Positions 18,918-23,686 of a stretch of DNA of 24,013 bases are shown in pieces. The DNA is from a virus, in the IMG/VR virus record IMGVR_UViG_3300004151_000043, positions 1-24,013 of that record. One strand, 5' to 3'. The notes beneath the pieces are model-generated. The model was not told where the DNA came from and did not search any database. It saw only the letters and a list, made by a program, of their open reading frames with translations. Each line of letters starts with the position of its first letter. The stretch's first letter is position 1. The position numbers were made by a program, and so were the translations under genes.

Positions 18918-19027
18918 ACTCTTATATATTATATAACCAGTATTCCCTTGAATGATTTTTTGAGTATTTCCGATCTGTCAGACTTGTTTATAGTCAGTAT
19001 ATTTTTCCAATAGAAAAGTTATCTACG

Positions 19028-19070
19028 TGAGCAGTCAGTCGCTATGGCTTGAGGCCTCGCTTCTTGCTCA
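19028..19070. other. GC-rich hairpin, candidate origin or ncRNA element
   Basis: TGAGCA (19028-19033) can pair with TGCTCA (19065-19070), enclosing a smaller stem GGC/GCC around TTGAG (19046-19056) and the 8-bp palindrome GAGGCCTC (19051-19058). It could be a DNA cruciform, part of an RNA, or a protein site. No promoter or terminator T-run is attached. Confidence 0.4.
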
Positions 19071-19107
19071 TAAACTAATTTGTAAAATAATTTAGTTAAG
19101 TGTTTAG

Positions 19108-19147
19108 GATTGTGGTGGGAAGTTTTTGAAGAGATTAAGATTGTGGT
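19108..19147 (+). repeat. two GATTGTGGT direct repeats, 31 bp apart
   Basis: GATTGTGGT occurs at 19108-19116 and 19139-19147. The 31-bp period is about three helical turns, so a protein could bind both on the same face. They might be iterons or operators for the downstream wHTH polymerase-like protein. Confidence 0.45.
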
Positions 19148-19202
19148 AGTAATAGAAATATATAATAATAATTTTTTTTTAATAATAATAAATTAATATG
19201 TG

Positions 19203-19343
19203 GGAACTTTTTTACTATTTATCAATAGGGAGCAGTAATAACTTTATATATACATTATGAGAATATCTAATATTCGATGAGAGTTCCACCAGAGTAGCTA
19301 CTGGTGGTTAGTCCCTCTCTAAAAGGACAGAAAAAAGGACTAA
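19203..19343 (+). promoter_or_regulatory. structured 5' leader with competing pairings and a hidden Shine-Dalgarno
   Basis: Several stems can form: GAATAT/ATATTC (19261-19266 with 19270-19275); CCACCAG/CTGGTGG (19286-19292 with 19301-19307, with the palindrome TAGCTA in the loop); GAGAG/CTCTC (19279-19283 with 19315-19319) enclosing the latter; TTAGTCC/GGACTAA (19308-19314 with 19337-19343), which crosses it as a pseudoknot; and GGAACT/AGTTCC (19203-19208 with 19282-19287), which excludes two others. GGACTAA contains the AAGGA-like ribosome site (19335-19339) before ATG 19351. A second GGAC (19325-19328) can compete for GTCC (19311-19314). This looks like a translational switch or structured RNA. 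Confidence 0.5.
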
Positions 19344-19350
19344 TAAAATA

Positions 19351-20532
19351 ATGTATAAAGTATTTATACCAACAAAACTTGTAGATGAAATTGAAAACTA
19401 CATATTAATAGAAAGTGATTTATCAAATACTACTGATAAACAAAAGAAGAACTTAACAAAACAACTTATTACACTATGGTATTTTATCTATAATGAACAA
19501 ATAGAAAGTTCATTAGATAACCTAAATCTATTCCTAAATATACCAAAAGAAAAATTAGAAGTATTCTATATAAAAATTAATAATAAAAAATTTGGATATA
19601 GAGTTCTTTTAGAAATGTTACAAAAGAATAATCTAATAGAAATTAATGATAAGTTTTCTACTGGTAAATTTTCTAAAGGATATAAAATAAAAACAGATTT
19701 TCTTTCAAGTAGTCATTATACAGAAATAGAAATTGACTTTGAAAAAGTATTTTATAAAAAACATAGTAAAGATTTTTGGTTAAAAAAATATCCACAATTC
19801 CAAAATCTTATTGAAGATTCTTATGCAACTAAAATAGATTTAGATGAATATTTATTTTGGATGAAAAATAATATTGGTATCAAACTTAAACCAGTAATTA
19901 TAAATGGAATTGTAAAAGAAAGATTTCTAACAGAAGAAAGAATATATCTTCATACAAACTTAGCTCTAAAACTAAACTTTGAAAATATTTGGTTTAAACT
20001 ATCTAATGAAGGTAGATTATACTCTACAATTACAAATTTACCATATACAACATTACCATTTTTTAAGATGTATAGAAGAAATGTTCTTGATATTGATATT
20101 AAGAACTCACAACCACTACTTCTATCGACACTGATAGACAATCCTACTTATAAAAAAGATGTTGAATTAGGTCAATTCTATGAGAATATGGCCAATGAGC
20201 TTGGTATGAAACGAAATGATTTTAAAATTCTTTCATATAGATATATCTTCTTTTCACCTAAACCAACTAAATCCGGTAAAGTATATGATGCTCTACAAAA
20301 ATTGTATCCTGATTTTATTGAAAGTTTAAATGAACTAAAAAAAGAAGTAAATGTTGCACATAAATTACAGGAAATGGAATCTGAAATATTTGTAAATAAA
20401 CTTGGAAAACTACCAATTAAAAAATTACTAAGACACGACCAAGTTCTTATACACAAAGAAGATTATGAGTTAACAAAAAAGTTCTTAGTAAATGAATATA
20501 AAAAATTAGGATTGAATATCAATCTTGACTAA
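19351..20532 (+). CDS. winged-helix protein with compact family A polymerase-like motifs
   Basis: A 393-aa protein with no family I can name. About 30-120 looks like a winged-helix domain of the replication-initiator type (FGYRVLLEMLQKNNLIE ... KFSKGYKI). The C-terminal half has motifs in the order of PolA or T7-like RNA polymerases: a motif A-like strand VLDIDIKNSQPLLL with Asp247/Asp249; a motif B/O-helix-like R288-x3-K292-x3-Y296-x3-F300; and a motif C-like H362-D363-Q. YPDFIESLNELKK between B and C fits the fold. Spacing (39 and 75 residues) is shorter than in E. coli Pol I (about 49 and 128), so fingers and exonuclease parts are missing. It has no reverse transcriptase YxDD. Role could be replication, repair or an accessory/defence function. 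It forms an operon with the GIY-YIG gene 15 bp downstream. Confidence 0.6.
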   Translation: MYKVFIPTKLVDEIENYILIESDLSNTTDKQKKNLTKQLITLWYFIYNEQIESSLDNLNLFLNIPKEKLEVFYIKINNKKFGYRVLLEMLQKNNLIEINDKFSTGKFSKGYKIKTDFLSSSHYTEIEIDFEKVFYKKHSKDFWLKKYPQFQNLIEDSYATKIDLDEYLFWMKNNIGIKLKPVIINGIVKERFLTEERIYLHTNLALKLNFENIWFKLSNEGRLYSTITNLPYTTLPFFKMYRRNVLDIDIKNSQPLLLSTLIDNPTYKKDVELGQFYENMANELGMKRNDFKILSYRYIFFSPKPTKSGKVYDALQKLYPDFIESLNELKKEVNVAHKLQEMESEIFVNKLGKLPIKKLLRHDQVLIHKEDYELTKKFLVNEYKKLGLNINLD

Positions 20533-20547
20533 AAATAATTATGAATA

Positions 20548-20994
20548 ATGAATAATATAGATGAATATTTAAAAAATATTGTAAGTAATGGATATGTATA
20601 TTTTGTTTATAGTGATGTTACAAACAAAATATATGTTGGTGAAAGTATTAGTAAAAAAAGAATTGATATTTATAAATCAATAATAAATGAAGATGATGAT
20701 AAAGTTAGAATTCGTTTATATAAATATTATACAAAATCAAATGCGATTAATTATGAATTGGCAGGTGATATGGTAAATAGAAATAATAATTTTAAAATAA
20801 TAGAAATAGAAACTAAATATCACAAACATTTAGAACAAACATATATTAGGTTTTTATATGATAAAAGCTATGAACTTTATAATAGTAAGTTGTATAAAAA
20901 ACATAAATATTCAGATATAGAACTTGATAAAGAGATTATTTCTTTATTAATAAATTCTTTAGAACCAGTTAAAAGAAAGAAATTGGATTGCTAA
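20548..20994 (+). CDS. GIY-YIG nuclease-like protein
   Basis: A 148-aa protein that matches the GIY-YIG fold by motif: GYVY at 15-18 (GIY part), KIYVG at 27-31 (YIG part), Arg38, Glu96 in KHLEQTYI, and Asn112 in ELYNSKL. The Glu-to-Asn spacing of 16 is close to that in I-TevI (15). The insertion between Arg38 and Glu96 is longer than in minimal domains. No DNA-binding add-on (NUMOD or HTH) follows, so it is more like a stand-alone nuclease than a typical homing endonuclease. It is co-oriented and closely spaced with the polymerase-like gene, and both are very A+T-rich (line 20581-20640 has 14 G/C in 60). Confidence 0.65.
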   Translation: MNNIDEYLKNIVSNGYVYFVYSDVTNKIYVGESISKKRIDIYKSIINEDDDKVRIRLYKYYTKSNAINYELAGDMVNRNNNFKIIEIETKYHKHLEQTYIRFLYDKSYELYNSKLYKKHKYSDIELDKEIISLLINSLEPVKRKKLDC

Positions 20995-21006
20995 TTTTTC
21001 AATTAG
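20991..21006 (+). terminator. weak hairpin after the cassette
   Basis: CTAATT/AATTAG with loop TTTC, overlapping the stop of the GIY-YIG gene. The stem is all A+T apart from the outer pair and lacks a T-run, so termination is doubtful. Confidence 0.2.
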
Positions 21007-21062
21007 GTATATTTAATATAAGTCCTTAAATTCGCACTTCAAAATTAAGTGGTGATATAAAA

Positions 21063-22025
21063 ATGAGTAAAAAATATACAGTAGGTAGTTTATATGCAGG
21101 GATTGGTGGGATATGTATGGGTTTTAAGAAATCAGGATTTGATTTACTTTGGGCTAATGAATATGATAAATCTGCCTGTATCACTTACAGAAATAACTTT
21201 AAACATAATTTGATTGAAGGTGATGTTCTACAATTAGATTTAGATAAAATTAAACCTGTAGATGTTCTAACTGCAGGCTTTCCTTGCCAACCATTTTCAG
21301 TAGCAGGTTACAGAAAAGGTTTTGATGATAACAGAGGTAATCACTTCTTTAGAATACTTGATTTTGTTGATACAATGAGACCAAAAGTAGTATTCCTTGA
21401 GAATGTAAAAAACCTTACTACTCACGACAATGGTAAAACAATGAAAGTAATTGAACAATCTCTAAGAGATAGAAAATACTCATTTCAAGCTAAGGTTTTA
21501 AACACTAAAGACTATGGAAATATCCCTCATAATAGAGAGAGAATTTTTATGGTTGCTTTTGATACAGAAATTTATCCAAATGCAGAATCTTTATTTGAAT
21601 TTCCTAAAGAAGAAAAATTATCAAAGTCAATTAAAGATTTAATTTCTAAAGATAAAGTAGAAGATAATTTCTACTATGGTGAAGATAAGTATATGTATGG
21701 TATGCTTGAAGAAACAATGAAATCAGAAGACACTGTTTATCAATTTAGAAGACAATATGTAAGAGAAAACAAATCTAATGTTTGTCCTACTCTTACTGCA
21801 AATATGGGAACTGGTGGCCACAATGTACCACTTATTAAAACTGAATATGGTTTTAGAAAATTAACTCCAAGAGAGTGTTTAAGATTCCAAGGATTTCCTG
21901 ATACATTTAAAATTCCTACTCAAATTGCAAACTCAGCAGTTTACAAACAAGCAGGAAATTCTGTTAGTGTTCCAGTAATACAAGCAGTATCAAAAAAAAT
22001 ATTAGAAGTGTTAGAGAGCTTTTAA
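21063..22025 (+). CDS. C5-cytosine DNA methyltransferase
   Basis: Transfers a methyl group from S-adenosylmethionine to C5 of cytosine within a recognition sequence. The family motifs are present in order: I, YAGIGG (11-16); II, NEYDKSA; IV, GFPCQPFS with catalytic Cys75; VI, FLENVKNL; VIII, HNRERIF; then a variable target-recognition region (about 185-255); IX, RKLTPRECLRFQGFPD; and X, QAGNSV. Length 320 is close to M.HhaI (327), so it is probably complete. It converges on the nuclease gene on the other strand, overlapping it by 15 bp, which suggests a restriction-modification pair. Alternatively it may protect phage DNA as an orphan enzyme. Confidence 0.95.
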   Translation: MSKKYTVGSLYAGIGGICMGFKKSGFDLLWANEYDKSACITYRNNFKHNLIEGDVLQLDLDKIKPVDVLTAGFPCQPFSVAGYRKGFDDNRGNHFFRILDFVDTMRPKVVFLENVKNLTTHDNGKTMKVIEQSLRDRKYSFQAKVLNTKDYGNIPHNRERIFMVAFDTEIYPNAESLFEFPKEEKLSKSIKDLISKDKVEDNFYYGEDKYMYGMLEETMKSEDTVYQFRRQYVRENKSNVCPTLTANMGTGGHNVPLIKTEYGFRKLTPRECLRFQGFPDTFKIPTQIANSAVYKQAGNSVSVPVIQAVSKKILEVLESF

Positions 22026-22769
22026 AGTTTTCACTAAATTTTCAATCAAACCTAAATCACCACTTTGGATGTAATAGTTACTTGCATCCATTTTGGTGTA
22101 ATGATTTAATATTGAGTTTTGAGGTAAAATATAGTTGTTAGCTATGGTTGCAATTAGATATTCATTTGTTGTATAACCTGCAATATCAAAACTCCACTTA
22201 TTTTTAAAGATTATATCTTCTATTACAGACTTTTCAATTTCATTACTATACATCAATCTTTCTGCCTTAAACAACTTTTTAATATCAGGGCTAATCCTAA
22301 CTAAAATAAAGTAATCATAGGTAGTTGTTGTACCATCATTTCTCAAAAGATTAGGTATATATTGACCTTGTGGATTCCAATCTTTTGTTTCTAACAAAAG
22401 TAAATTTGATTGAGAAGCAGCAGACTTTACATTTATTTTTTTACCCTTAATTTCTAAATCAGAATCGTCCCAAATACCCTCTGCATAAATACCAAAATCA
22501 GGTTCTTGAGATTCCAATCCTTGAGATTTGAAATAGTTATAAAGAGCTACCTCCGCTAATTTACCTTGAAATGTATTGCAAAACTTTTCACCACCCTTTC
22601 TACCATATTGTCCACCAGTTCTATGGTCTCTATGGTGACCTTGACCAAAACACATTTCATAAGCAAAGTCTATAACTTTTTGAATATCTTCTTTTGATAT
22701 TGGTATACCATTAAACCCTCTTGGATTACTTACATAATAATTGTTTAAACCTTGTTTATCCAGTCTCAT
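22011..22769 (-). CDS. putative type II restriction endonuclease (PD-(D/E)XK)
   Basis: A 252-aa protein with a PD-(D/E)XK-like layout: GKLAEVALYNYF (69-80, helix Glu73), then DDSDLEIKGKKINVKSA, giving Asp104 and Lys115 with Asn113 in the usual acidic position of the D/E-x-K half, followed by LLLLET and a long C-terminal part. The N-terminal YGRKGGEKFCNTF may contact DNA. The fold and its tail-to-tail overlap with a C5 methyltransferase suggest the cognate restriction enzyme. It is translationally coupled to the upstream nuclease-like gene by TAATG (22767-22771). The recognition site cannot be predicted from this. Confidence 0.65.
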   Translation of the reverse strand: MRLDKQGLNNYYVSNPRGFNGIPISKEDIQKVIDFAYEMCFGQGHHRDHRTGGQYGRKGGEKFCNTFQGKLAEVALYNYFKSQGLESQEPDFGIYAEGIWDDSDLEIKGKKINVKSAASQSNLLLLETKDWNPQGQYIPNLLRNDGTTTTYDYFILVRISPDIKKLFKAERLMYSNEIEKSVIEDIIFKNKWSFDIAGYTTNEYLIATIANNYILPQNSILNHYTKMDASNYYIQSGDLGLIENLVKTLKAL

Positions 22770-23686
22770 TACTTAGCAGTTTTAGTATCTGCTACTTCTG
22801 AGATTATATTCCAATTCTCTTTATAATGTTGAAGTGTAGATAAATTAATACTTGTAATCTGTTCTTCAGGTAATCCATCAACATAGTTCATAGGTATCAA
22901 ATAACAAATACCCACTTCTTTATCAACTGCCACATAAATATCACAATCTGCTGAAGTAATTCTCTGTCCTTTATTCCTTTCGTGTTTGTGGTCAATTCCT
23001 TGTCCTCCTCTATCTCTATCTTTAAAACTAATTGAGTTACCACTTGAAACACCTTTAATTTGAAGTCTTAATAATACATTGTTGAAATCTACAACTGCAT
23101 CATATCTACTTGACCTAACATCAACATTAGAACAGTTATAACCTGCTAATATTGCTCTTGCTAAAAACAAAAACTGAGCACTATCACCTGCATTTGCAGT
23201 CATAATACCAGTATTTATATTCAATAAGTTTGTTGGAAATCCATTAGAAAAAATAAAATCATATTGTTTCTCTAAAATCTTTTTTAGTGCAGTCTTTGTA
23301 TATGCAAAATGATTAGCGTCTGCTACACTTGCTTGGATATACTCAAGTGAACTGTTAATAAAAGTATCTTTATTTACTTCATCTGCTAATGCTCTTTGAA
23401 GGTAATCATCATAAAATGATTCCAAATCTGATTTTGCTATCAAATATTTATTAGCAATATCCTTGATTTTTACCTTCTTAAATTTTTCAATTCTAAAATC
23501 TCTAATAAGTTCCTGTTGAAAAGCAACATCATTCAATCTGTATATGAAATACCCTTTCATATAAGATTTCAAATTTGTTATTGAACCAAATAAATCAACT
23601 CCACCAGCTGTCTTAGTTATATCAAATTTAACATCATTAATTGCTACTATATTAGCTTTTAAGTATTCTATCTTTTCATTAGGCAT
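22769..23686 (-). CDS. second PD-(D/E)XK nuclease-like protein
   Basis: A 305-aa protein. The N-terminal half (about 1-130) is helical and may include a small DNA-binding helix pair (KVKIKDIANKYLIAKSDLESF resembles an HTH). The C-terminal half shows GDSAQFLFLARAILAG, then SSRYDAVVDF with Asp196 and Q209-I-K211, and YVAVDKEVGICYLIPMNYV, the layout of PD-(D/E)XK proteins similar to PF11645-type nucleases; Gln replaces the middle acidic residue, as some members have. Coupled to the 252-aa gene, it may be a second restriction subunit, a specificity factor, or a separate nuclease. Confidence 0.55.
   Translation of the reverse strand: MPNEKIEYLKANIVAINDVKFDITKTAGGVDLFGSITNLKSYMKGYFIYRLNDVAFQQELIRDFRIEKFKKVKIKDIANKYLIAKSDLESFYDDYLQRALADEVNKDTFINSSLEYIQASVADANHFAYTKTALKKILEKQYDFIFSNGFPTNLLNINTGIMTANAGDSAQFLFLARAILAGYNCSNVDVRSSRYDAVVDFNNVLLRLQIKGVSSGNSISFKDRDRGGQGIDHKHERNKGQRITSADCDIYVAVDKEVGICYLIPMNYVDGLPEEQITSINLSTLQHYKENWNIISEVADTKTAK

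Follow-up and report, generated by a model that had tools for sequence, protein, structure and literature searches.

A compact family A-like polymerase gene and its predicted pseudoknot leader in a viral contig

Two neighbouring genes in a viral contig raise the question of whether they form, together with the DNA in front of them, a defence or mobile cassette, as a preliminary description of the locus had proposed, or whether the locus serves phage replication, the alternative that it had also named. The window analysed here is an IMG/VR virus record in its full length of 24,013 bp, with terminal repeats absent. It carries a tyrosine integrase gene (186-2021) and a minus-strand structural block (portal, tape measure and others). 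Between this block and a C5-methylase gene (21063-22025, plus strand), which is followed by two minus-strand genes, one of them with a PD-(D/E)XK match, we confirmed two co-oriented open reading frames of 393 and 148 aa (19351-20532 and 20548-20994, plus strand) with a 15-bp gap. Phage replication fits this locus best. What it holds is a variant of known polymerases behind an undescribed leader element, which is more interesting than the cassette first proposed.

The 393-aa protein and its family

Searched alone against Pfam, PHROGs and PDB sequences, the 393-aa protein had no match. An alignment-based search found relatives in 108 viral-contig stretches, 80 of which were retained, and in 36 bacterial genome loci, mostly from Bacteroidota but also from Planctomycetes, Verrucomicrobia and Ignavibacteria. 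Matches in huge-phage genomes of 595-735 kb were obtained by tblastn with the polymerase. In a 595-kb phage (L003 3794-6240), a 428-aa ORF comes immediately after the compact polymerase, and Pol A-like motifs (FDY, VYG, HIHD) were recognised in it by eye. The first 86 viral sequences gathered, the window's included, are 380-442 aa long; intact family members span ~350-630 aa, and those scanned contain no nuclease domain. The 39 neighbours of bacterial homologues include three integrases and no consistently recurring defence family. The subfamily of the window protein is rare, with 3/397 and 1/395 genomes carrying it. Among the closest relatives, identity to the window protein is 51% in L123, 45% in L087 (a Flavobacterium azizsancarii prophage), 42% in L007, 31% in L124 and 27% in L137. 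The closest syntenic relatives are L007 and the F. azizsancarii prophage, where the divergent polymerase gene and its leader keep their place beside the same structural block as in the window.

The family A polymerase-like motifs noticed earlier in this protein are real. In an alignment of 55 sequences, motif A (D249-I-x-N-S-Q-P), the fingers motif R288xxxK292 and motif C (H362-D363) are conserved, and R222, D249, N252, Q254, P255, K292, F301, E343 and D363 are invariant. This set includes the catalytic residues D249 and D363, the motif B lysine K292 and the template-side R222, which the AlphaFold2 model places between strands 215-217 and 223-225; the fingers arginine is replaced by lysine in some relatives. 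The model, built with 52 sequences (pLDDT 90, pTM 0.85), contains a polymerase palm and fingers. Residues ~135-393 matched mitochondrial RNA polymerase about as well as family A DNA polymerases (Z 11.4-12.7 for apicoplast Pol, T7 DNAP, Taq and mitochondrial RNAP), up to a match to 5dkt at Z 12.7 and 4.1 Å over 229 residues, and all 50 matches listed belong to the polymerase superfamily. Among predicted viral structures the best matches were ~400-aa phage proteins, one of them annotated as DNA polymerase I (E 9.7e-14), with a Rheinheimera Barba phage polymerase ranking lower. We are nearly certain, from this predicted structure, that the 393-aa protein has a compact fold of the family A or single-subunit-RNAP type, a fold that by itself would suit an RNA polymerase or a repair enzyme just as well.

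The preliminary description had also proposed a wHTH-like N-terminus, and structure matches support it. When folded on their own, the first 136 residues look like winged helices (~1-115 in the full protein), the top match being the plasmid initiator 4pql at Z 6.4 over 97 residues, which is under the tool's trust level of 8. Three of the six best matches (4pql, 4pt7 and 5kbj) are a plasmid initiator that we take to be RepA_N, and ORC winged helices come next (Z 5.5-6.4). A closest likeness of this domain to RepA_N initiators is suggestive at Z values under 8, and a winged helix encoded beside a repeat-bearing intergenic region fits an initiator.

The polymerase core fits the description of TV-Pol, a group of 400-600-aa proteins from Bacteroidetes, Planctomycetes, Verrucomicrobia and phages for which a primase-polymerase function was predicted from context (Iyer, Abhiman and Aravind 2008, PMC2579912); the placement is by description and not by homology to a named TV-Pol. 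The two agree in size range, hosts and a minimal core comprising a beta-hairpin with a conserved arginine before the palm (R222), two aspartates, RxxxK in the fingers (R288xxxK292) and no exonuclease in proteins of roughly 400-600 aa (~350-630 aa here). They differ in the N-terminal domain, a winged helix here and predicted to be all-helical there, and in the D5-like helicase, which was found neither fused to the polymerase nor encoded near it among the L007 ORFs examined. As the helical N-terminus and D5 helicase occur in subsets of TV-Pol, we regard the polymerase as a variant and file it as TV-Pol-like only. A search of Microcystis phage LMM01 with the A2 profile returned no match, an empty answer from the tool that carries no information.

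Stand-alone family A domains are likewise found in the CcPol-MP and PolA-SSB primases of SCC mobile elements (eLife 2020, PMC7581432; Rice 2023, PMC10061031), and CcPol-MP, which is counted as TV-Pol, has primase activity (PMC10061031). This likeness too is one of description, and, unlike in those elements, no OB-fold partner gene or helicase was recognised beside the window gene. The divPolA2 proteins of ~430 aa, described as accessory to PolB in barbaviruses and possibly DNA or RNA polymerases (Yutin et al. 2024, PMC11348598), share an active palm, an N-terminal globular domain, the lack of an exonuclease and a comparable likeness to DNA polymerases and mitochondrial RNA polymerases, but no leader was described for them. 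With hhalign, divPolA2 AUR84708 aligned weakly (P 0.021) over 165 colinear columns, including the regions of motifs A, B and C. The first gene of phage immuto_3-5A, annotated as DNA polymerase family A and presumably its divPolA1, gave P 0.19 over 41 columns.

Large phages and mobile elements commonly carry compact family A-like polymerases, but the domain libraries searched lack them, and the question at stake is whether such proteins act as primases, polymerases or RNA polymerases. A small phage with one of them as its sole recognised replication protein makes this question testable. The other large ORFs of L007 are of terminase, recombinase, tail fibre, lysis or structural kinds, so the polymerase is the only replication enzyme recognised there; no helicase, primase or second polymerase was found among the ORFs scanned or matched in this contig, which may be incomplete. 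The role may vary across the family, because jumbo-phage relatives may coexist with other polymerases.

The leader upstream of the polymerase gene

An AT-rich element (TTATATATACA, 19244-19254, plus strand), putatively a promoter, lies ~107 bp before the polymerase start, and a similar one is found at a similar place in relatives. The leader proper opens with the 5' arm of a helix, S1 (GAGAG, 19279-19283), which pairs with a 3' arm at 19315-19319 (CTCTC). Enclosed by S1 are an inner hairpin, b (CCACCAG, loop AGTAGCTA, CTGGTGG; 19286-19307), and a seven-nucleotide element, X (TTAGTCC, 19308-19314). Past an A-rich loop stands copy 1 (GGAC, 19325-19328), a short complement of X, and then copy 2 (GGACTAA, 19337-19343), its full complement, 7 nt before the start codon; all these elements are on the plus strand. 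Since S1 encloses X but not its two partners, pairing of X with either copy would make an H-type pseudoknot whose A-rich loop spans S1.

The window, L007, L087, L123 and L124 have one layout in common over the 70-90 nt that lead up to the start codon. It begins with S1 (5 bp), a two-nucleotide joint, hairpin b (6-7 bp), X (seven nt; six in L124) and the 3' arm of S1; an A-rich linker then leads to copy 1 (4-6 nt), and a spacer rich in A and T separates this from copy 2 (6-7 nt), which is followed by the start codon. In the leaders compared, copy 2 lies 1-13 nt ahead of the start codon. The loop of hairpin b is conserved in the relatives as AGTAATTA, the window version being AGTAGCTA. A DNA pattern derived from the leader matched five viral contigs only, three already known and two more, L136 and L137. 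The L137 element stands before another member of the polymerase family, a divergent one of 401 aa with 27% identity, and the L136 element before a 183-aa protein with weak Pfam matches of winged-helix type (DnaD_N, E 0.036), in which hhalign with the polymerase N-terminal profile found nothing. Six of the seven leader elements thus precede this polymerase family and one a winged-helix-like protein. Copy 1 was found in all five leaders tested and is visible in both later ones.

Across the seven sequences, all 125 cells of S1, hairpin b and X:copy 2 are paired, and changes on both sides occur in 15 of the 18 pairs: 4/5 in S1, 5/6 of those counted in hairpin b and 6/7 in X:copy 2, which is 100% paired in the seven phages. 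The covariation score was 0.984, compared with 0.206 for shuffles and 0.14-0.26 for slid controls; in the underlying alignment the stretch from S1 to its 3' arm was joined straight to copy 2, the linker was omitted and two rows were padded with N. Because the helices were picked for complementarity, the share of paired cells is inflated, and the number and variety of both-sided changes are the stronger evidence. When the 3' regions were shuffled, 7-242 of 20,000 trials reproduced the X/copy 1/copy 2 property. Every one of the 125 cells is a Watson-Crick pair, with no G-U pair and no one-sided change; this absence of G-U, unusual for RNA, may mean a role as DNA or just strong selection.

A covariance model built from four leaders recovered the held-out L087 leader (35.8 bits), L136 and L137. 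When the RNA model was run against ~790 Bacteroidota genomes, it returned the F. azizsancarii prophage, already known, and one match inside housekeeping genes that we judged to be chance. An Rfam search of the leader gave no credible match.

The preliminary description had a structured region of ~320 bp, and in that extent it was not borne out: folding energy was no better than that of shuffled sequence for 19000-19350 (z -0.17) or 19225-19350 (z -0.79). What stood is its last 72 nt (19279-19350), which we call structured on covariation, since energy gives no such signal. There is hardly any doubt in our minds that the leader is an evolved pseudoknot structure. As its sequence predicts, it is an undescribed H-type pseudoknot, in which two helices are nested and a 7-nt element has its complement in each of two repeats ahead of the start codon. 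A loose detector of this arrangement of X, copy 1 and copy 2 could not separate polymerase leaders from control ORFs, and our claim for the element therefore does not extend to the polymerase family at large. A putative look-alike, with X ahead of hairpin b, was seen in L089, L088 and L090.

Possible roles of polymerase and leader

We favour, with a probability of about 0.5, the reading that the locus is the replication module of a temperate Bacteroidota phage, in which translation of a polymerase-initiator is switched by the pseudoknot. The protein, a minimal polymerase of family A type whose winged helix is initiator-like, would bind DNA close to its own gene and make primers and/or short DNA, from which phage replication would start, the host doing the remainder. 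That the polymerase has some role in replication we hold to be reasonably probable.

For the leader, translational control is the simplest reading, and we put its chances at about even. Within the mRNA leader, S1 would enclose hairpin b and X; pairing of X with copy 1 would leave the start-codon region free, and pairing with copy 2 would cover the ribosome site and block translation. The leader would then be a translational switch, perhaps triggered by binding of the polymerase. Pseudoknots upstream of the start codon control translation of replication genes in the T4 gene 32 and IncI-alpha repZ leaders, and the T4 polymerase and single-strand binding protein repress their own mRNAs. The present leader shares the placement of those pseudoknots but has no sequence relation to them, and its 3' strand is duplicated, as copy 1 and copy 2, around an A-rich linker. 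Such a built-in alternative partner predicts exact compensatory mutants. The polymerase need not be the ligand, because the L136 element precedes a different protein. This hints at an element that regulates early replication genes, or at an origin, more than at a partner dedicated to the polymerase.

The pseudoknot could also act as DNA, as a hairpin-type origin or priming site on single-stranded DNA where the polymerase starts replication and where X, copy 1 and copy 2 permit realignment of the first primer. We regard this as possible but doubtful. Replication origins often adjoin initiator genes, and the purely Watson-Crick pairing and the copy before a winged-helix-like protein point the same way. 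So do the repeats in the intergenic region before the leader, two imperfect ones of 31 bp in the window (19089-19150) and a tandem array in L007 (~5585-5760), which from their sequence are possible iterons. The element nevertheless abuts a start codon in every case, as an mRNA leader would, and has a promoter-like element upstream. A more specific version, in which a minimal family A primase-polymerase starts phage replication on the cis-acting pseudoknot or hairpin, as single-stranded DNA or transcript, and realigns or extends the first product through the duplicated complement of X, seems to us unlikely; if true, it would be a new initiation mode and a new class of structured element.

Equally unlikely, in our view, is a phage RNA polymerase of the mitochondrial or T7 kind, serving to transcribe phage genes, perhaps with TTTAATATATAG-like motifs as its promoters. 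DNA polymerases carry Glu at motif A D+5, where this protein has Gln254, and its matches to mitochondrial RNAP reach Z ~12. The motif TWATATATA lies 13-50 nt ahead of many phage ORFs on the same strand, although it fits a bacterial -10 region as well, and the L007 phage has a sigma-like PHROG match (E 0.0065). At 393 aa the protein lacks most promoter-binding parts of the known enzymes. The same option was left open for divPolA2 (Yutin et al. 2024, PMC11348598).

We find it improbable that the leader is a non-coding RNA that remains attached to the polymerase and gives it a template or guide, as happens in retrons or with defence-associated reverse transcriptases. A strongly conserved structure with a repeated complement does adjoin the polymerase gene, but for most of the family, found in jumbo phages and bacterial genomes, nothing like this leader rose above controls, one leader stands before a gene that does not encode a polymerase, and the genes sit amid phage structural genes.

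The GIY-YIG-like gene and the surrounding sequence

The 148-aa protein (20548-20994) had been described as GIY-YIG from its motif residues, and the resemblance is plausible, but the single PF01541 match in the window (20590-20703, E 0.047) reached 9 bits against a cut-off of 22.6. No homologue was found in the viral contigs or phages searched. The gene 3' of the polymerase differs in each of the closest relatives and is in none of them GIY-YIG (ORFs of 125 aa in L087, 121 aa in L123, 133 aa in L124 and 141 aa in L137), and L007 has no gene close behind the polymerase. Among 41 relatives' records, 19 had PF01541 matches, none adjoining the polymerase; the nearest, by reading of coordinates, lies ~4 kb away (L077 record). 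Because GIY-YIG is not beside the polymerase in any relative examined, we take the window gene to be cargo and are confident that it is not part of the polymerase module; homologues never neighboured by GIY-YIG genes were what the preliminary description itself had named as a refutation. That leader, polymerase and GIY-YIG protein make up one defence or mobile unit is hardly credible: the two window ORFs lie only 15 bp apart, but no relative examined keeps the pair and the second protein has no detectable homologue.

GIY-YIG restriction enzymes exist, and the 148-aa ORF before the C5-methylase gene recalls, by analogy, such enzymes as Eco29kI. With the C5 cytosine methylase and the two minus-strand genes it forms a stretch (20548-23686) that resembles a restriction-modification cluster; one minus-strand gene has a PDDEXK_5 match (E 3.4e-5) and the other encodes 252 aa with a PD-(D/E)XK-like stretch, IKGKKINVKS.

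TWATATATA, which is likely a phage promoter judging by its placement, occurs in the window at 2701, 7634 and 18931 (minus strand) and at 19244 and 23760 (plus strand), a count weakly above chance, and also in the L007 contig, L087, L133 and L137. Sigma-factor-like proteins are encoded in relatives at L124 3391-3981, recognised by eye, and at L130 5977-6471, by the PHROG sigma-factor match in the L007 phage. A GC-rich inverted repeat (GAGCA...GAGGCCTC...TGCTC, 19028-19071) at the left edge of the intergenic region is perhaps a terminator or part of an origin.

A 216-aa protein encoded at 2022-2672 of the window is kept in L007, L087, L136 and L137 (28-44% identity); its L007 homologue matches phrog_13596, of unknown function, and in L136 its homologue adjoins the pseudoknot element. 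The L007 phage encodes a 577-aa serine recombinase (L130 7703-9436) where the window phage has a tyrosine integrase, which points to integrase swapping.
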